In this document: positions 1 through 18,000 of the stretch, one piece after another
Layout: every line of letters begins with the position of its first letter
How positions within the stretch are numbered: position 1 is the stretch's first letter
From: Chitinophaga pinensis
GTDB lineage: Bacteria; Bacteroidota; Bacteroidia; NS11-12g; UBA955
Length of the DNA: 50,855 bases
Assembly: GCA_945888525.1 (NCBI GenBank)
Contig: CAMDAF010000013.1
Span: 1-50,855 of the forward strand
Direction of reading: 5' to 3'
The notes under the pieces: generated by a model
What the model was told of the DNA's origin: nothing
The model's database searches: none
The model's input: only the letters and a program-made list of their open reading frames with translations
Program-made: the position numbers and the translations under genes

Positions 1-30
1 AATTAAATGTATATAGTTCGAAAAAACGCG

Positions 31-38
31 TATTTTTG
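31..38 (+). promoter_or_regulatory. Putative -7 promoter element of leader copy 1
   Basis: TATTTTTG matches the Bacteroidota -7 consensus TAnnTTTG and is conserved in the second leader (5313-5320). No clear -33 TTTG is seen in either copy. If used, transcription would begin near base 42 and give an untranslated leader of about 260 nt before the gene at 304. Confidence 0.45.
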
Positions 39-57
39 TTTAGAAGGAAGAATAAAA

Positions 58-105
58 ATGCTTGTTTACTTCTATACTTCGAAGTCGCTAAAAAAGGTAC
101 TTTAA
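58..105 (+). other. Leader mini-ORF 1 (15 codons)
   Basis: The frame reads MLVYFYTSKSLKKVL and is preceded by a purine-rich stretch (GAAGGAAG) that could serve as a ribosome-binding site. The second leader keeps the ATG and the first 12 codons but ends one codon later as MLVYFYTSKSLKN (5340-5381). It may be a leader peptide, or it may be conserved only because the RNA is. No known leader peptide was recognised. Confidence 0.25.
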
Positions 106-119
106 TCTTAAAAAAAACT

Positions 120-164
120 ATGAAAAAAAACAGACCAAACACATTTTTAAATCCAAATTTCTAA
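120..164 (+). other. Leader mini-ORF 2 (14 codons)
   Basis: The frame reads MKKNRPNTFLNPNF and then TAA. The second leader has MRKNRPNTFLNPNF with the same stop position (5405-5449). The only difference is AAA to AGA, a conservative Lys to Arg change. The stop codon falls in the loop/arm of a small hairpin (CAAATT-TCT-AATTTG, 154-168), as expected if translation influenced RNA folding. Translation is unproven. Confidence 0.3.
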
Positions 165-230
165 TTTGAAGCTGCTTTGGTATCAAACCATTGAAATGCG
201 CGAACATCTATTTTATAGGTCTTGACCTAT

Positions 231-263
231 CTCTTACACAAAGAGTCGGGCAGTTTTAACTGC
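231..263 (+). promoter_or_regulatory. Tandem RNA hairpins in leader copy 1
   Basis: Two adjacent hairpins are present: CTCTT-ACACA-AAGAG (231-245) and GCAGTT-TT-AACTGC (250-263). Both are identical in the second leader (5518-5550). A third hairpin just upstream (ATAGGTC-TT-GACCTAT, 215-230) exists only in this copy. The pair lies 40-70 nt before the start codon at 304, where it could affect translation or transcript stability. The RNA class was not recognised. Confidence 0.45.
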
Positions 264-303
264 ACTTAATTTTTAGTTTCAATTTTTAAAAATCAATTAT
301 TTT

Positions 304-714
304 ATGAAAAATTTAGTTTTCAAAACGTTTCTTTTATTGGCTTTTGTAATGGTGTCTTTTATTGGTAAAGCACAACCTTGCGAATTAACCATTGACAATT
401 TTAGTTCTTGTGCTGTTAATGTAACAGTCTTGAACTCAACTCTAACTGCAATAGGCGCATTCGGAACTCCAGCAGTGGCAGGTTTGGGTGGACAATATGT
501 TTGGACACCTTGTGGTAATCCTGGAGATATTCCGGCCTTTTTTCAAGTGGACTATGGAACTTGTGGTTCAATAATTGTTGATTTGACAGGAACTTTGTTC
601 GGCCCTTTTACCCCAGGACTTTGCTGTCCATGTGGAAGTATTACAATGAGCGGAATTTCTGGGGCTTCTCCTTGCGGTGTAACCTCTTTAATTTACCACC
701 TTGATATTCACTAA
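304..714 (+). CDS. Small Cys-rich secreted protein A
   Basis: The product is 136 aa of unrecognised function. Residues 1-23 form a typical signal peptide (MKNLVFKTF, a hydrophobic stretch, then GKAQ), so the mature protein is exported. The mature part has eight Cys, including CC-x-C near residue 107, and few charged residues, which suggests a disulfide-stabilised extracellular domain. There is no T9SS C-terminal domain. The first nine residues are identical to the paralogous-looking small protein at 5591, whereas the mature halves align only loosely. It sits behind a long conserved leader and is followed by a hairpin and then a giant T9SS surface protein. A role as an accessory to that protein is inferred only from position. 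Confidence 0.8.
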   Translation: MKNLVFKTFLLLAFVMVSFIGKAQPCELTIDNFSSCAVNVTVLNSTLTAIGAFGTPAVAGLGGQYVWTPCGNPGDIPAFFQVDYGTCGSIIVDLTGTLFGPFTPGLCCPCGSITMSGISGASPCGVTSLIYHLDIH

Positions 715-731
715 TTTGCTTTAGATTGTAT

Positions 732-776
732 AATAAAGGCGCATCATGGAATATGTTCTATCGATGCGTCTTTATT
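732..776 (+). terminator. Hairpin terminator after small protein A
   Basis: A 14-bp stem with one G-U pair (AATAAAGGCGCATC with GATGCGTCTTTATT) encloses a 17-nt loop and begins 17 nt after the stop codon. The right arm itself is U-rich. The second module has an equivalent hairpin at 6079-6120. Confidence 0.65.
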
Positions 777-856
777 TATTGAATAAATTCAAACCTATGT
801 ATATTCAAATATAATAATTTTGTTTAATTTAAGAGTTACTTTTGATAAGAATTACA

Positions 857-3800
857 ATGTCTAAGGGTATAAATTTAATATTTTTTATTTGGTTTGTTGT
901 TAATTGCAAATCTTTAACCTGTCAAAATTTTGAATGGCTTAAAGGTTATGGGTCAAAATCTGGCTTCGAAAATATAATTGATTTAGAAACAGACAAAAGC
1001 GGAAATAGTATATACCTATTAAATGCAGCAGAAAGAACATCATTAACATTTATTGATTCAATTCAATTAGACTCTATAAAAGTCTTTTTACCATCAGGCA
1101 AGCAATCTAAAAGTTTGTTTCTCGTTAAGTCAGATAAAAATGGAAAAGTTATACAACTAAAAAATATTGGGAACTTTCAAGCTTCAAATATAGAAATTGA
1201 TGAAATTGGAAATATTTATGTAAGTGGTATTCTAGTAGATACCTCTTTTTTAATTGTTAATGGAAAAAAACTTGATATGGGAAATGGGCATTTAATTGTT
1301 CTAAAACTAGATCAAAATTTTAACCAAATATGGCTGTTTCAAGATGGGGTTGACTCTTTGATCTATTACAATGGCAGCCAATCCTACATGAATTTAGTTG
1401 CATATAAGAACAGGAAGCTTCTATTTAATTATAATGCATTAATTAAAACTAAATTTGGTTCAACTACCTACAATCCAATTACAATGTCTCCATTGTATGG
1501 AGAAATTAATTCATTAAATGGGAATTTAATTTGGACCAAAAGTCTATTAAGTACTAACAGTCAAATTGAAATTGCAATATCTAACATTATTTCAGTTGGA
1601 AATTGCATCTATTTGACAGGAAATTGCAGAAACAGTGCTCAAAAAGGTAGTTACACAATTATATATTCCGATACATTTTTTGGCAGAGAGTCATTTGTTA
1701 TTAAGTTAGATTCTGTTGGCGCCTTAATTAAAAAAAATCGTTTATATAACGGTAAAACAATCGTAATTAGTTCGCTAGCTAGTGATCAGAAAAATATTTA
1801 CTTAGGCGGACATTTTGTTGATACTTTGAAATGGGGAAGCCAGATCATTGCTCCAGAAATCAATGATTATCCAACTAATTTGAGTTATGGATCAGGAAAA
1901 TATCTTCAATTTTTCGTCGCTTCGCTTTCGCTAAACTTAACTCCAAGGTGGTTTTATAGACCTCAAGTCAATGGTAAATCTATTTCAAGTAATTATTCAG
2001 GCAATGTTTCTAAAATTTATTGTAATAATGATTTTATTTATGCTGGCGTAATCCAAGGGGGGAACTCAAAAATTAATGGAATTCAGATACCTGATGAGCT
2101 AGGGGTATTGATTTTAAAAATGGATCAATTGGGGAATGTCTTATGGTACGCTAAAGGTGGAAAAATGAATATTAATGGAATACAAGTAGCCATAGGTGCT
2201 TTTGATGGTAAATTTGTTTACATCGGAGGTCCGTTCATTGATTCAACAAAGTTTGGAATCTTATCAATTCTTAACAAAGGAATAGGTTCAGGTCAATCCG
2301 ACGCCTTCATCACCAAACTCTCTGACAACGCCATTATCCGCGGTCAGGTAAAGGCTGGTCCTTATTGTGCTGGTGATACCTTGCGTATTCCTTACCGCAA
2401 GATTGGCGATTATGATACCTCCAATGTCTTTATCGCTGAACTCAGCGATGCCGATGGTAATTTTACGGGTGCACACCGTCAACTTGGTAGACTAAAGTCC
2501 AATAAAGACAGCGTCATTCTTGCTCGCTTGCCCTTATTTCAGGTCAGCTCTTCTGAAAAATACAGAATTCGAATATTAAGTACTGCCCCTGCCGTGCAAA
2601 GCTATTATAAGGTCGATACACTGAGGCTTTTAATCTATTCCAAAGACAAGGCCTTTGCTGGCAATGATACCACAATATGCAATGGCGATTCGGTAAACCT
2701 TCAAACCTTTGGTGGTACCAAATGGAACTGGAGCCCTAGCTATAAATTAAAAGACAGCACGGCCCGCAAGACTCCTGCTTGGCCCGATAAAACCACGCGC
2801 TATAAAATTATTATTGCCGATAGCAGTGGCTGTGGTATGGCCGATACCGCTTATAAAACCATTGTGGTGCGCAAGCTTCCTAGCATACAATTTCACACGC
2901 CCAAAGACACAGGTGTTTGCATCGGTGGCCGCATGCCTTTAATTGCTTCTTTCCATGGTGGCGATTCTTTAGGATACTCTTGGCAATGGGCCAGTATTGA
3001 TGGCTTAGGCAATTATAGTTTTCCGCGCTCTGGTTCTGGTAAACTAGCCGATACCCTGCTGTACACCATGCCTGTGAATGAATTGGATTCTATGCGTTTT
3101 GTGTTGTACCTCAACGATGGCTGTACACCCAAAACTGCCTTTTATAATTACACCCTAAAAGTTAAAAAGCAAAAGTCAAGGGCAAGGTTTAATGGCTTAG
3201 ATACCATGGTATGCCCCGGTAAAGCAATTGCTGTGGTGGCTGGTTTTGATGCGGGCGATTATAGTTTGTATTCTTGGACTTGGCAAGAACAAAACCTCTC
3301 AGGGTCGTGGAACAACAGACGCTTTGGAAGCAATAAAGGTGCTGATACCTTTAAATATACTTTAAGTCCTTTGTGTCAAGGAAAGAAAAATCTGCGCGTG
3401 TTGCTCAAAGACCAATGCACCGGTCTGAGCGATACTGCTGTTTATTCTCTTATCCCAAGAGATACCTTATCGCTAAGTCTTAACAGTGCTGACACCACCC
3501 TGTGCCAAGCCAATCAATATGTGTTTAAAGTAAAAGCTAAGGGAGGCAATCCAAGTACTTACCAATATAGATGGATTAACACCAATAGCCAAGATACCTT
3601 ATCGCTAACAGACAGTTTGCTTTACAAACCAAAAATACCAGCTGCCCTAATGGTGGAAGTGAATGATGGCTGCATGCAAAAGTCTATTCAAAAAACCATT
3701 CAAGTGGATGTGTTTCCTGTTCTAAGTGCTGGAATATACAGCCAATCAAAAAAGGCAAAAGACAGCACCTTGTGTTACGGTCAAGTGCTTAAGGTATATG

Positions 3801-5236
3801 CCCAAAGCAGTGGTGGTAAAGGCAGTGGTTATACTTACCTTTGGAAATACAAAGGCGTAAACATTGGTCAAAAAGACAGTATTGCATTTACCCCTTCCCA
3901 AACTGCAGTTCTTGAACTCATAGGCAGCGATGCTTGTTTTGAAAAAGACAGCAGCCGCATAAACATTACGGTATTGCCTAAGCTAGAGTCAAACATCAAA
4001 ACCCAAGACAGTCTGTGCTTGCCAAGTGCCATAAGTCTAAAAGCCCTAGCCCAAGGTGGTAAAGGAAACTACAGCTACCAATGGCTAAGTTCAAGCAATG
4101 TGTTGCTAGGATCTAAAGACAGTTTGCAAATCAATTACAACGATAGCAGTCAAAAGGGTCTGCGTGTATACAAGTTAATACTCCAAGATGGATGTTCCAG
4201 CAATGACAGCACAAAAATAAACCTCCATTTATTGCCAGGTTTAAGCCTTGCATTAAAGACCCAAGACACCTGCATAAGTTCGTCAACTGTATTGACTGCT
4301 TTAGCTTCAGGAGGTAAGGCAAATAAGCAGCAAATAACTTGGTTTAAGAATGGGGTATTTTTAAGCTCAGGACCAAGCAGCAGTTTAAACATTGCAGCAC
4401 AAAGTGCAAGGTACAGCGCTGTCTTAAATGATGGGTGTAGCAAGGCCTCAGACACTGCAAGCATAAGGGTTTACACCAAAGCACAAGTCAGCATAAAGGT
4501 GAGCAATCCTTGTTATGGCGATACCAGTATTTTAAAAGCAAGACTGCTTAGCAGCAACCCAATATCCAATTACAATTGGTTAATCGACAACAACAATTTA
4601 AGCACCATTGATAGTGTATTGAAATTAAGGTTTAACAGCATTGGATTGCACACCATAGTTTTAAAAGCAGGCACAGGCCAATGTGTGGGCAAAGATTCCA
4701 TCAGTTTTACCATCATTGAAAAACCAAAGGCAGCCTTTGATTTTACCCATTTGCCTAACACCAACACTGGCATTCCTTTCCAGTTTTACGACCGCTCGCT
4801 GCTCGCCAATTCATGGGCTTGGACCTTTGGAACCTACGGGCAAGCCAGCACCAAGAACCCTAAGTTTACTTTCCCTGATTCAGGTTTTATTCGCATCAAA
4901 TTGCGTGTTGGAAAACAAAATCTTTGCTTTGACAGCACCGAGCAAAATATTCCAATTTACGAGCGTATAGAATTCTTCTTCCCTGATGCCATAAGCATTG
5001 ATGGCAATGGCATCAACGATGCATTTGGTTTAAATCCTGGTCAATATCCATTTGTAAAAACCTACCGCTTAAGCATCTTCAACCGTTGGGGTGAAAAGGT
5101 ATTCGACTCCGATGTTAAAGAAGAAACCTTTAGCAGTTCTCGTGCACTACAAGGCGTTTACGTTTACAAAGTATTTATTAAAGATATTTACGATGTAACC
5201 CATACACTGGAAGGGACGCTTACGGTGTTGAAATGA
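857..5236 (+). CDS. Giant T9SS type B surface protein with Ig-like repeats
   Basis: The product is about 1459 aa. ATG at 857 is preferred over the in-frame TTG at 842, because a -7-like box (TACTTTTG, 837-844) overlaps that TTG. After a signal-like N-terminus, residues up to about 480 resemble SBBP/beta-propeller repeats, with recurring motifs such as GNIYVSG and VGNCIYLTG. A series of Ig-like modules of roughly 80-90 aa follows, each with a paired Cys and phrases such as DSTLCYG or DGCxxxD. Near residue 1300 comes a PKD-like module (WAWTFG). The last ~85 residues are a gliding-motility/T9SS type B sorting domain (FFFPDAISIDGNGIND, FNRWGEKVF, GVYVYKV). It is expected to be exported by the type IX system and attached at the surface. 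GC content rises sharply near 2290, inside the gene. Confidence 0.85.
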   Translation: MSKGINLIFFIWFVVNCKSLTCQNFEWLKGYGSKSGFENIIDLETDKSGNSIYLLNAAERTSLTFIDSIQLDSIKVFLPSGKQSKSLFLVKSDKNGKVIQLKNIGNFQASNIEIDEIGNIYVSGILVDTSFLIVNGKKLDMGNGHLIVLKLDQNFNQIWLFQDGVDSLIYYNGSQSYMNLVAYKNRKLLFNYNALIKTKFGSTTYNPITMSPLYGEINSLNGNLIWTKSLLSTNSQIEIAISNIISVGNCIYLTGNCRNSAQKGSYTIIYSDTFFGRESFVIKLDSVGALIKKNRLYNGKTIVISSLASDQKNIYLGGHFVDTLKWGSQIIAPEINDYPTNLSYGSGKYLQFFVASLSLNLTPRWFYRPQVNGKSISSNYSGNVSKIYCNNDFIYAGVIQGGNSKINGIQIPDELGVLILKMDQLGNVLWYAKGGKMNINGIQVAIGAFDGKFVYIGGPFIDSTKFGILSILNKGIGSGQSDAFITKLSDNAIIRGQVKAGPYCAGDTLRIPYRKIGDYDTSNVFIAELSDADGNFTGAHRQLGRLKSNKDSVILARLPLFQVSSSEKYRIRILSTAPAVQSYYKVDTLRLLIYSKDKAFAGNDTTICNGDSVNLQTFGGTKWNWSPSYKLKDSTARKTPAWPDKTTRYKIIIADSSGCGMADTAYKTIVVRKLPSIQFHTPKDTGVCIGGRMPLIASFHGGDSLGYSWQWASIDGLGNYSFPRSGSGKLADTLLYTMPVNELDSMRFVLYLNDGCTPKTAFYNYTLKVKKQKSRARFNGLDTMVCPGKAIAVVAGFDAGDYSLYSWTWQEQNLSGSWNNRRFGSNKGADTFKYTLSPLCQGKKNLRVLLKDQCTGLSDTAVYSLIPRDTLSLSLNSADTTLCQANQYVFKVKAKGGNPSTYQYRWINTNSQDTLSLTDSLLYKPKIPAALMVEVNDGCMQKSIQKTIQVDVFPVLSAGIYSQSKKAKDSTLCYGQVLKVYAQSSGGKGSGYTYLWKYKGVNIGQKDSIAFTPSQTAVLELIGSDACFEKDSSRINITVLPKLESNIKTQDSLCLPSAISLKALAQGGKGNYSYQWLSSSNVLLGSKDSLQINYNDSSQKGLRVYKLILQDGCSSNDSTKINLHLLPGLSLALKTQDTCISSSTVLTALASGGKANKQQITWFKNGVFLSSGPSSSLNIAAQSARYSAVLNDGCSKASDTASIRVYTKAQVSIKVSNPCYGDTSILKARLLSSNPISNYNWLIDNNNLSTIDSVLKLRFNSIGLHTIVLKAGTGQCVGKDSISFTIIEKPKAAFDFTHLPNTNTGIPFQFYDRSLLANSWAWTFGTYGQASTKNPKFTFPDSGFIRIKLRVGKQNLCFDSTEQNIPIYERIEFFFPDAISIDGNGINDAFGLNPGQYPFVKTYRLSIFNRWGEKVFDSDVKEETFSSSRALQGVYVYKVFIKDIYDVTHTLEGTLTVLK

Positions 5237-5282
5237 GGGGTTAATAAGGCTTAACAGCCAAAAACCGATTGTTATATTTTCA

Positions 5283-5616
5283 AATTAAATGTATATAGTT
5301 CAAAAAAACGCTTATTTTTGTTTAGAAGCAAGAATAAAAATGCTTGTTTACTTCTATACTTCGAAGTCGCTAAAAAACTAGCCATTTTAATCTTAAAAAC
5401 AACTATGAGAAAAAACAGACCAAACACATTTTTAAATCCAAATTTCTAATTTGAAGCTGCTTTGGATTAAAATCCATTGATCTTCTTGAACCATCTATTT
5501 CATAGGTCTTTTTCTATCTCTTACACAAAGAGTCGGGCAGTTTTAACTGCACTTAAATTTTAGTTCCAATTTTTAAAAATCAATTATTTTATGAAAAATT
5601 TAGTTTTCAAAACGTT
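5283..5616 (+). repeat. Conserved leader repeat, copy 2
   Basis: This is the second copy of the leader at 1-329, again ending inside the first codons of a small secreted-protein gene. The -7 box (5313-5320), both mini-ORFs (5340-5381 and 5405-5449) and the tandem hairpins (5518-5550) are kept. The hairpin at 215-230 of copy 1 is not. Changes are scattered substitutions and short indels, with the longest identical block around mini-ORF 2. Confidence 0.9.
5518..5550 (+). promoter_or_regulatory. Tandem RNA hairpins in leader copy 2
   Basis: CTCTT-ACACA-AAGAG is followed by GCAGTT-TT-AACTGC, identical in sequence and spacing to copy 1 at 231-263. They lie about 40 nt before the start codon at 5591. 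Confidence 0.45.
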
Positions 5617-6070
5617 CGCTATTTTAGTTCTTAGTTTCTTTAGTATTTCAAATTCCAATGCCCAAATGACGGCCTGCACACCTACAGTATTAGATCCATT
5701 CCCTTGCGGGGCTGCCTGTACGGAAATTACAGTAGTAAACGTCGATGTTCCATGTGGTTTATCCCTTTATTGGGGTTATTTTAATTGCAGTCAATTAATT
5801 GGTTACAATGCACCTATCAATATGGGCGATTCAATTATTAAAACGGGGCCATGTGCCCGTTGCAACGATCAATTGCCTTGTGAATGTCCCAATAAAATAA
5901 TGCTGATGGACCAAACCAATACGTTGTTTTGGCCTTGGGGGAATTTAACTTCAATGAGCAACAGTTTATATAGCAATGTTCAGAATATCTGTGGTGCTTG
6001 CATTGGAGTAAATGTTCAAATTATAATAACTGGAACTAATTCTGCGACTATCAGATTCAGTTGTATATAA
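5591..6070 (+). CDS. Small Cys-rich secreted protein B
   Basis: The product is 159 aa of unrecognised function. A signal peptide spans residues 1-25 (MKNLVFKTF, a hydrophobic core, NSNAQ). The mature part is very Cys-rich (C-x2-C, C-x-C and C-x2-C pairs, for example CARCNDQLPCEC), suggesting disulfides or metal binding outside the cell. The N-terminal nine residues match small protein A at 304, as does the whole upstream leader, but the rest has diverged or been exchanged. A strong hairpin follows the stop codon, and 65 nt later a T9SS type B protein begins, repeating the gene order of the first module. Confidence 0.8.
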   Translation: MKNLVFKTFAILVLSFFSISNSNAQMTACTPTVLDPFPCGAACTEITVVNVDVPCGLSLYWGYFNCSQLIGYNAPINMGDSIIKTGPCARCNDQLPCECPNKIMLMDQTNTLFWPWGNLTSMSNSLYSNVQNICGACIGVNVQIIITGTNSATIRFSCI

Positions 6071-6078
6071 TTTTTTCT

Positions 6079-6120
6079 AATATAAAGAAAGTGCTAACTT
6101 TTTTGCACTTTCTTTATATT
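6079..6120 (+). terminator. Strong hairpin between small protein B and the T9SS type B gene
   Basis: A perfect 16-bp stem (AATATAAAGAAAGTGC with its complement) surrounds a 10-nt loop containing six T. It begins 8 nt after one stop codon and ends 15 nt before the next start codon at 6136. It could terminate transcription from the small gene or act as a partial terminator or processing site that sets the expression ratio. Confidence 0.7.
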
Positions 6121-6135
6121 ATATTTGAATACACC

Positions 6136-8610
6136 ATGAGACAAATATTTGTTTTGTTTATTTATTTAGGTTTTGCGTCCAGCATTATGGCCCAAAAAGA
6201 AACGAATATTTGGTATTTTGGAAACCGAGCGGGTATAAATTTTAATTACAATCCGCCTAAAGCAATTTTAAATTCAAAAATGTCCACAAGTGAGGGTTGT
6301 TCTGTCGGATCTGATAGTAGTGGTAACTTGTTGTTCTATACAGACGGCATAACTGTTTGGAATAAAAACCATGATACAATGGTTAATGGATGGGGTTTAT
6401 TTGGACATTCAAGTAGCACTCAATCTGCATTGATTGTAAACAAAGCTAAAAGTTCCATTTATTATATTTTTACAAGTGATTGTCTCCCAGGAATGATCAA
6501 TAGCCCAGGAAAGGGAGTCTGTTATTCTGTAGTAGATATGAAATTGGATGGAGGTAATGGTGTTGTTACCCTTAAAAATCAATTGCTTTTTGAATTTTCA
6601 TGCGAAAAATTGACAGCAGTTGAACATAATAACAAACGAGATATATGGATAGCTGCAGTTAAAAGACTTACCGATAGTATATTTGTCTATAAGCTATCTG
6701 ATTCAGGTTTGTCTAATCCAATTATAAATATAAATCCAGGCGCAAAAGTAGGTATAGGTCAACTAGTTGGTGGAGTGGGGCAAATGAAGTTTTCAAGTAA
6801 TGGGGAATATTTAGCGTATATAAATCATTTTGACACAAATTTTATTGAATTATCTGAAGTACATGTGCTAAATTTTAACAATAAAACGGGTAAATTGGCC
6901 CAACCTAGAGTGATCTTCGGGTTTCCTGCTTTGTCGGGAATTTATGGTCTGGAATTTTCTCCAAACAGTCGTATTTTGTACATAGGGACTCGGAAAAGTT
7001 TCTATCAAATACCAATTTCTAAAATAAAAGATAGCTCCGATATTAATTTGATTTCGGATTATAATCAATTAGGGGGAAATGTATTTAGGATTGGGGCATT
7101 TCAATTGGCTTCTAATGGAAAAATTTATATTGCTAACTCGAATGATTCTTTTGTTTCAGTGATAAATTACCCAGACAGCATTGGCGCAAAATGTGCTTTC
7201 TCGAAATATGGAATTAAGTTCTTAAACAGACTATCCTATCCTGGTCTTCCCGCTTTCGTTCAATCGCGTATCTATTACCCGGTCCGATTGCAAGCTGATA
7301 CCAATTGTGTCTTGGATTCTGTTTTGCTGAAAATTGAGAACACTCAAGTCGATTCGGTACATTGGGACTTTGGCGATGGGTATAAATCAAAAGGCTTAAC
7401 AAAATGGGCTAAACACCTTTATAATGATTCTGGAAATTACCAAGTTCAAGCAAAATTGTTTAGGCCTAATCTAACAGATACTGTTATTAGCACCTCTGTT
7501 TTTATTGCTTTTATTAAGCATCCCAAATTTACGTCCGATACCACCTTGTGCATAGGTCAAAACCTACTGCTTAAAACCCTTAATATGTCTATTTTTTCCT
7601 ATGCATGGAACACGGGTTCAAAATCACCTTCTCTGTTAATTAATTCAGCGGGTTTTTACAAAGTAAGTTTGCAAAATAAATATTGCAAATTGTCTGATAG
7701 CATACGTGTAAAATATGGCAAAAAACCGCAGGTTTTCATAGGGAACGATACGGCATTTTGTAAACAATTTTCTTTGGTGCTAGATGCAAACAGTAAATAC
7801 AAAGATTATCTCTGGAATACAGGTCAAACCACCTATAAAATAACGGTTAATCAAGAGGGGCAATACCATGTTAAAGTCCTGGACTCAAACCAATGTCCCG
7901 CAGCAGATACCATCAATATTAATGTGCTTAAAAAACCTAAGATTTCATTGTCCTTGGATAGTGTTTCTTGTCGCTATGTTGTATTAAGTTTTAACAAACA
8001 AAATGGTGTGCAATATGTTTGGAATAGTGGTGATACCTCAGCGCTCATTCAAGTAAACCAAAAAGGTCTTTACGTCCTAAGCGCTTCTAATCAATTTTGC
8101 AGCAATGCGGATTCAACATTGGTAAATCTTTTACCCAAACCTATGGTCAATTTGGGCGCCGATACTTTGATTTGCAATCCCATGGTTTTAAACACCAATG
8201 AAATTGGAAAATACCAGTGGAGCGATGGAAGTTCGAATGCATCTTTAACGGTTAATAAACCTGGTGTTTATTGGCTAAAAGTATCAAGAAACAATTGCTT
8301 TGCGATAGACAGCATCAGCTTAATACCTTGTAAAGAATTGTCGTATTTTATTCCCACTGCCTTTTCCCCAAATGGTGATCTTAGTAACGATGTATTCAAG
8401 GTTTATGGCAAAAACATCAAAGAAATAAAATTGGAAATATTCAACCGCTGGGGAGAACAATTACTTAATGTGAGCGATGCCGACCCTGAATGGAACGGCG
8501 TGTATTTAAACCAAACCTGCCAAGAAGGTATTTACCTTTATAAAATTGAACTCAAAAGTTACAATGGACAAATTTTATACCTCAATGGTTTGTTTACTTT
8601 ATTGAGGTAA
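6136..8610 (+). CDS. T9SS type B surface protein with propeller-like and PKD domains
   Basis: The product is 824 aa from ATG 6136. An in-frame upstream start at 6061 would overlap the preceding gene and place 25 extra residues before an obvious signal peptide (MRQIFVLFIYLGFASSIMAQ). The segment after the signal (NIWYFGNRAGINFN) is characteristic of a Bacteroidota family with a beta-propeller-like region, here to about residue 370. A PKD domain follows (VHWDFGDG, residues ~400-460), then three or four short Ig-like modules (YLWNTGQTT, YVWNSGDTS, YQWSDGSS). The final ~85 residues are a T9SS type B sorting domain (FIPTAFSPNGDLSNDVF, FNRWGEQL, GIYLYKIEL). The protein is predicted to be surface exposed, perhaps an adhesin; that function is inferred. 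It ends 6 nt before the convergent mutS. Confidence 0.85.
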   Translation: MRQIFVLFIYLGFASSIMAQKETNIWYFGNRAGINFNYNPPKAILNSKMSTSEGCSVGSDSSGNLLFYTDGITVWNKNHDTMVNGWGLFGHSSSTQSALIVNKAKSSIYYIFTSDCLPGMINSPGKGVCYSVVDMKLDGGNGVVTLKNQLLFEFSCEKLTAVEHNNKRDIWIAAVKRLTDSIFVYKLSDSGLSNPIININPGAKVGIGQLVGGVGQMKFSSNGEYLAYINHFDTNFIELSEVHVLNFNNKTGKLAQPRVIFGFPALSGIYGLEFSPNSRILYIGTRKSFYQIPISKIKDSSDINLISDYNQLGGNVFRIGAFQLASNGKIYIANSNDSFVSVINYPDSIGAKCAFSKYGIKFLNRLSYPGLPAFVQSRIYYPVRLQADTNCVLDSVLLKIENTQVDSVHWDFGDGYKSKGLTKWAKHLYNDSGNYQVQAKLFRPNLTDTVISTSVFIAFIKHPKFTSDTTLCIGQNLLLKTLNMSIFSYAWNTGSKSPSLLINSAGFYKVSLQNKYCKLSDSIRVKYGKKPQVFIGNDTAFCKQFSLVLDANSKYKDYLWNTGQTTYKITVNQEGQYHVKVLDSNQCPAADTININVLKKPKISLSLDSVSCRYVVLSFNKQNGVQYVWNSGDTSALIQVNQKGLYVLSASNQFCSNADSTLVNLLPKPMVNLGADTLICNPMVLNTNEIGKYQWSDGSSNASLTVNKPGVYWLKVSRNNCFAIDSISLIPCKELSYFIPTAFSPNGDLSNDVFKVYGKNIKEIKLEIFNRWGEQLLNVSDADPEWNGVYLNQTCQEGIYLYKIELKSYNGQILYLNGLFTLLR

Positions 8611-17334: not shown

Positions 17335-17903
17335 GACAGGATTACCTGACGGTGGTCCTAAGAGGGTGGCTTAACAAAGAAAACAAAATCAGAAGTCTGC
17401 TGCGCATCCTTTTCTTTTTCTATGCCTCCAAATGCTCAAATCAGAGCCTTTGGCATTTTGCTGGAAAAGGGACAGGATTACCTAACGGTGGACCTGAAGG
17501 GGATGGCTTAACAAAGAAAAAAGAAAGTGCAGAATACTTCGTATTCTTTATTTTTTATTTCTAAAAAAATATTCAAGACATTGTTCTAAGAAAATTTAAA
17601 GACAGGATTACCTAACGGTGGTCCTAAAGGGGATGGCTTAACAAATAAAGAAGAATGTGCTGGCCTGCTTCGCATGCCTTCCATTTTTCATTTTGTAAAA
17701 TTGCTCAAAGCAAAGGCAGGGCTTTACGACAGGATTACCTAACGGTGGTCCTAAGGGGGTGGCTTAACAAAGAAAACAAAATCAGAAGTCTGCTTCGCAT
17801 CCTTTTCTTTTTTTATGCCTCCAAATGCTCAAATCAGAGCCTTTGGCATTTTGCGGGAAGAAAGACAGGATTACCTTACGGTGGTCCTGAAAGGGGATGG
17901 CTT
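17335..17903 (+). repeat. Array of five structured interspersed repeats
   Basis: Five more copies of the 38-40-nt core occur at 17335, 17471, 17601, 17728 and 17864, with starts 127-136 nt apart. The spacers are of two alternating kinds. After cores 17335 and 17728 a spacer has AAGTCTGC and GCATCCTT arms and a second hairpin (ATGCC..GCTC with GAGCC..GGCAT). After cores 17601 and 17864 a different spacer has GGCCTGC-TTC-GCATGCC arms. The spacer after 17471 holds AGAATAC-TTC-GTATTCT. All first hairpins share a C-TTC-G apex although the stems differ. There is no coding gene and no tandem identity of the CRISPR kind. Confidence 0.85.
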
Positions 17904-18000
17904 AACAAATAAAGAAGAATGTGCTGGCCTGCTTCGCATGCCTTCCATTTTTCATTTTGTAAAATTGCTCAAAGCAAAGGCAGGGCTTTGGCAATTTTCC

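Follow-up and report, generated by a model that had tools for sequence, protein, structure and literature searches.

The window analysed here is the whole of contig CAMDAF010000013.1 (C13), 50,855 nucleotides of an assembly assigned to Chitinophaga pinensis. It begins with an array of small and large genes in which the sequence ahead of the first small gene recurs ahead of the second. The features of the array are as follows.

1..303, forward strand: leader copy A (-7 box 31-38, predicted transcript start about 43, predicted 5' UTR 43-303)
58..105, forward strand: mini-ORF 1 (MLVYFYTSKSLKKVL); in copy B at 5340-5381, shorter (MLVYFYTSKSLKN)
120..164, forward strand: mini-ORF 2 (MKKNRPNTFLNPNF); in copy B at 5405-5449, with K2R
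231..263, forward strand: two adjoining short hairpins; copy B equivalent 5518-5550, identical
304..714, forward strand: P0001, small Cys-rich protein, predicted to be exported; 304-329 common to P0002
732..776, forward strand: terminator-like strong hairpin between P0001 and P0003 (z -5.0)
857..5236, forward strand: P0003, large protein with a C-terminal CHU_C type IX secretion domain
5153..5282, forward strand: 5' extension of the repeat; partner C3:132313-132442
5283..5590, forward strand: leader copy B (-7 box 5313-5320, predicted 5' UTR 5325-5590)
5591..6070, forward strand: P0002, small Cys-rich protein, predicted to be exported; relatives in four other genomes of the order
6078..6121, forward strand: terminator-like strong hairpin between P0002 and P0004 (z -7.8)
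6136..8610, forward strand: P0004, large protein with a CHU_C / T9SS type B sorting domain; conserved partner of P0002

Genes of the array

The products of P0001 and P0002 have signal-peptide-like starts, and each gene occurs once in the genome. Past these starts the two proteins have no detectable relatedness (score 39, shuffle p 0.11), and hhalign aligned the signal peptide alone. The predicted structure of P0001 was not usable (pLDDT 39). The P0002 model (pLDDT 70, from three sequences) had no Foldseek match under E 0.001. It aligned with many aegerolysins and actinoporins at Z 5-7, but the top row was an unrelated Vps13 domain at Z 7.1; the aegerolysin and actinoporin rows were not above background, and P0002 had no Pfam match.

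The two large proteins scored above the Pfam cut-off of 27 bits for CHU_C (P0003, 34.7 bits; P0004, 53.4 bits) and in this resemble the products of type IX secretion cargo genes. Unlike the usual CHU_C cargo, they come after small Cys-rich exported proteins that have no family in Pfam or NCBIfam. P0003 and P0004 are only distantly alike and differ in their N-terminal make-up. Within P0003 there is an abrupt change at about position 2299, with a GC content of 30% in 857-2298 and 43% in 2299-5236. Amino-acid identity to the homologue in the nearest relative (G010) is 25-42% before position 2291 and rises at the change from about 40% to 76%, a pattern that replacement of the N-terminal part would give. 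On the reverse strand inside P0003, positions 912-999 matched the eukaryotic snoRNA model snoZ266 at 35.7 bits against a gathering threshold of 43, most likely by chance.

Relatives of P0002 were detected in four genomes of the order (G002, G004, G014, and G062), each with a relative of P0004 downstream, and P0004 had 42% identity along its entire length to the counterpart in L078. Judged by this gene order, P0002 and P0004 are a conserved two-gene cassette. In one case, the G062 locus (L079), a Por_Secre_tail domain takes the place of CHU_C at the end of the partner. A search with a three-member P0002 alignment returned two loci, whose proteins were the same as those of the G002 and G062 cassettes, and the public records for two P0002-type cassettes are Bacteroidota metagenome-assembled genomes. 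Of six cassettes inspected, the two of the window among them, five have a strong hairpin separating the small gene from the large one, and the hairpin sequences look unrelated; the G004 cassette has about 30 bases between its genes and no hairpin of note. These hairpins may act as terminators, letting the small gene outexpress the large one. The cassette pairs a small Cys-rich exported protein with a large type IX secretion protein, in most cases across a terminator-like hairpin, and has no name in the libraries searched.

The repeat and its borders

The initial annotation reported that positions 1-329 recur at 5283-5616, and nucleotide comparison within the genome bore this out (92% identity, E 6.6e-134), with 22 substitutions and three indel events over 334 alignment columns. 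The alignment also agreed with the annotation that the likeness runs through the first nine codons of the following gene, which read MKNLVFKTF in both copies; ATGAAAAATTTAGTTTTCAAAACGTT is the last stretch alike in both, and the coding sequences then diverge. Two imperfect 25-nt tandem copies (TTTTCAAAACGTNTCTTTTATTGG) at 317-365 span the point where P0001 parts from P0002 and are possibly a trace of the junction. The annotation took the unit to be the leader plus the signal-peptide start. Both are present in the repeat, but the full unit is longer, at about 460 nt, and consists of the tail of a CHU_C gene, intergenic DNA, the leader and the nine codons. Its 5' border lies at C3:132313, which is equivalent to window position 5153 and falls about 130 bases upstream of the window start. 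In copy B the 5' extension comprises the last 27 codons and the stop codon of P0003, followed by intergenic DNA. Because the 5' end sits within another gene, the edges of the repeat do not follow functional borders, and the extent of the unit is better read as an accident of breakpoints.

Copy A touches the window edge, as annotated. The end of contig C3 overlaps window positions 1-149 exactly over 149 nt, after which the match runs on upstream; an exact overlap of this kind would be the usual mark of neighbouring contigs in an assembly graph. The annotation allowed for more copies upstream, and none beyond A and B was found in the assembled genome; the match on C3 is most simply copy A continued in the assembly graph, rather than an established third copy. 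A weak match at C3:128380-128421 was not counted as a leader copy since it sits at the A-rich start of a gene. Within the assembly only two copies exist, which is part of what the annotation had said would leave a plain duplication; because of the branch at the window edge, a further unit could still be there. The position of copy A at a contig end could raise the suspicion that the second copy is a false join. Yet the two copies are found on the same contig, and their divergence of 8% is far over sequencing error, which makes an assembly artefact a very remote prospect.

Direct repeats of this length, spaced 5.28 kb apart, could recombine. The locus might be an expression site for exchangeable payloads, at which secreted products are swapped again and again by recombination of one leader with another or one CHU_C tail with another, and of which the population carries additional units. 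Such a site would fit the two different payloads behind one leader, the branch at the repeat implied by the C3-C13 overlap, and the uneven identity of P0003 to its G010 homologue around position 2291. We nonetheless consider repeated exchange unlikely: the assembled genome contains no silent payloads or further leader copies, P0001 and P0002 occur once each, and no second genome with the leader was found. Of the recombination suggested by the annotation, an element is seen in the chimeric signal-peptide junction. Were exchange the true reading, the locus would be a payload-swapping surface locus. There is only a slim chance that this lineage has its own expression module, made up of the leader (promoter, long 5' UTR, and paired hairpins) and the signal-peptide start, behind which recombination trades secreted payloads within an array of type IX secretion surface proteins, and that the assembly break conceals more units.

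Both halves of the array consist of a leader, a small exported Cys-rich protein, a hairpin and a CHU_C protein, a symmetry that would be expected if an entire cassette, small gene and CHU_C gene together, had been duplicated in tandem, after which the coding parts diverged quickly and gene conversion kept the leaders alike. Because P0001 and P0002 show no detectable relationship past the signal peptide and P0003 and P0004 are only distantly alike, with different N-terminal make-up, this would need proteins that changed far more than the leader, and we regard it as improbable.

The leader as predicted promoter and possible RNA

Each leader copy contains exactly one TAnnTTTG box by motif scan, at equivalent sites (31-38 and 5313-5320), so the annotated -7 box is conserved in number and place. 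The chance of at least one such box in a random leader of the same composition is 0.22. TAnnTTTG is the -7 consensus of the Bacteroidota sigma-A factor (PMC6847099, PMC9723704), and no -33 motif was evident by eye in the leaders. The leader promoter is therefore assigned as sigma-A-type by consensus only, and it is predicted to be active. Counted from the -7 consensus, the predicted 5' UTR is 261 nt in copy A and 266 nt in copy B, far above the Bacteroidota medians of 24-32 nt (PMC9723704, PMC7366714).

A 5' UTR of this length invites the explanation that the leader works in cis as an RNA, perhaps as an attenuator whose short leader peptide is encoded at 120-164 and whose hairpins are those at 231-263, and that selection has maintained it in both copies since the duplication. 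The distribution of differences between the copies is in line with this explanation. They are clustered (30-nt windows, variance of differences, permutation p about 0.0002), most of them in a patch at 181..226 on the forward strand, which reflects either constraint on the remaining leader or replacement of a patch. The hairpin pair CTCTTACACAAAGAG and GCAGTTTTAACTGC (231-263) is the same in both copies and locally stable (local z -2.9, for a stretch picked after the fact). The fold of the whole leader, in contrast, was unremarkable against shuffles (z -0.85 and -1.18) and differed between copies, and the hairpin ATAGGTCTTGACCTAT (215-230) has a perfect stem in copy A and is broken in copy B. 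The annotated hairpins are thus conserved in part. No compensatory changes supporting a structure were found, a weak test with two copies only.

The annotated mini-ORFs did not hold up as conserved coding sequences. Mini-ORF 1 has 15 codons in copy A and 13 in copy B, and the sole change between copies in mini-ORF 2 alters an amino acid (K to R), so that comparison of A with B gave no sign of coding constraint on either. With a long 5' UTR and short ORFs behind a TAnnTTTG box, the leader resembles flavobacterial and Bacteroides leader-peptide attenuators and structured 5' UTRs (PMC9723704, PMC7366714). Unlike these, it lacks a fold signal over its whole length, a conserved peptide, any connection with an amino-acid pathway and any relatives.

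Searches with the leader were made across the genome and its relatives, and the two copies in the window were the only ones recovered. Neither 96 relatives of the same order nor 395 genomes sampled across the phylum contained the leader, with short AT-rich matches only, and these matches lay mostly around the start codon. An exact 21-base leader core found no leader in 84,980 species genomes or in viral contigs, and the leader was likewise not found in phages and plasmids. Regions upstream of other P0002-type cassettes gave nothing beyond the same short AT-rich matches. As a known RNA the leader was rejected, since an Rfam search to E 5 had no match over either copy. The cis-regulatory RNA proposed in the annotation gained no support from these searches or from the tests of folding and covariation, and a functional cis-acting RNA has little probability in our judgement. 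The repeat very probably reflects duplication rather than an RNA family.

Origin of the repeat

On the copy A side, the repeat begins with an orphan CHU_C remnant of 27 codons. An ftsE-like ABC transporter gene lies about 165 bases before it, and the join has an in-frame TAG. Four of the five codon differences between this tail and the end of P0003 are synonymous, against 23% expected, which from five changes only suggests that the tail still coded for much of the time since the duplication. A run of about 95 bases beside ftsE (L005:19586-19680; C3:132177-132271) contains three hairpins of the form AAGGTGTTNTNCACCTT; it adjoins the truncated CHU_C tail and is near the deletion breakpoint proposed below. 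The hairpins were rejected as a genome-wide repeat, being present only in this cluster.

Three congeners (G012, G013, and G015) have the order ftsE, DUF2851, mutS without the array, and the source genome (G000) has the array between ftsE and mutS. A DUF2851 gene was not found in the source genome, which is 98% complete, and is present in 12 of the 17 genomes of the genus set, the nearest relative included. In that relative (G010) the flanks have 92-94% DNA identity to those of the source genome; ftsE is followed by a gap of Ns and then DUF2851, and the contig stops before mutS. Its P0003 homologue lies on a short contig and has no leader after it.

The explanation we favour, at about even confidence, is that a local tandem duplication followed by deletion and divergence gave P0001 the promoter, leader and signal-peptide start of P0002. 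The ancestral array would have comprised a P0001-type gene, a P0003-type CHU_C gene, the leader, P0002, P0004 and mutS. A tandem duplication of the stretch that starts in the body of the P0001-type gene, takes in the P0003-type gene and the leader, and ends with the ninth codon of P0002 would have fused the leader and nine codons in frame to the P0001 body (copy A), with copy B still serving P0002. Deletion would then have removed most of the upstream P0003 copy, probably with the DUF2851 gene that is normally found after the ftsE-like gene, and left the 27-codon tail beside ftsE. In its present state the locus would have two small exported proteins expressed from a sigma-A-type promoter with a long 5' UTR, both provided by the leader, and behind each of them a terminator-like hairpin and then a large type IX secretion protein. 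This exact order of events could as readily be wrong as right. Copy B is likelier the original because P0002 and P0004 are a conserved pair.

Duplication accounts for both borders of the repeat, the 5' one inside a CHU_C gene and the 3' one inside signal-peptide codons. The locus holds a direct repeat that carries one gene's promoter, identified by consensus only, and is joined at one copy to a different gene. Duplication is the best supported of the three options offered in the annotation, which had called it recent; at 8% divergence we consider it old. Several observations stand against it. Beside ftsE the upstream copy is reduced to the 27-codon tail, no trace of a P0001-type gene was found upstream of copy A, and no intermediate came to light, nor any relative that still has the undeleted arrangement. 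The C3-C13 join is a branch in the assembly, where sequence including DUF2851 or a hidden extra unit could lie, and the clustering of leader differences is contrary to the prediction for neutral duplicates. On balance the evidence favours a single ordinary duplication over a payload-swapping locus.

A parallel is known from the E. coli long-term evolution experiment, in which a tandem duplication of rnk-citG brought citT under the rnk promoter and created a fusion ORF (PMC5918244). In both cases a tandem duplication would set one gene's promoter before another gene, with a fusion reading frame at the junction. The event proposed here differs in that its history is reconstructed rather than observed, the fusion falls within signal-peptide codons so that the product is predicted still to be exported, and most of the upstream copy is gone. 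It may be a natural example of how, in a single step, a Bacteroidota secreted protein could acquire both a promoter and an export signal from another gene. Elsewhere in the window, positions 17471-17990 contain a four-copy tandem array with units of about 130 nt that are 70% alike.
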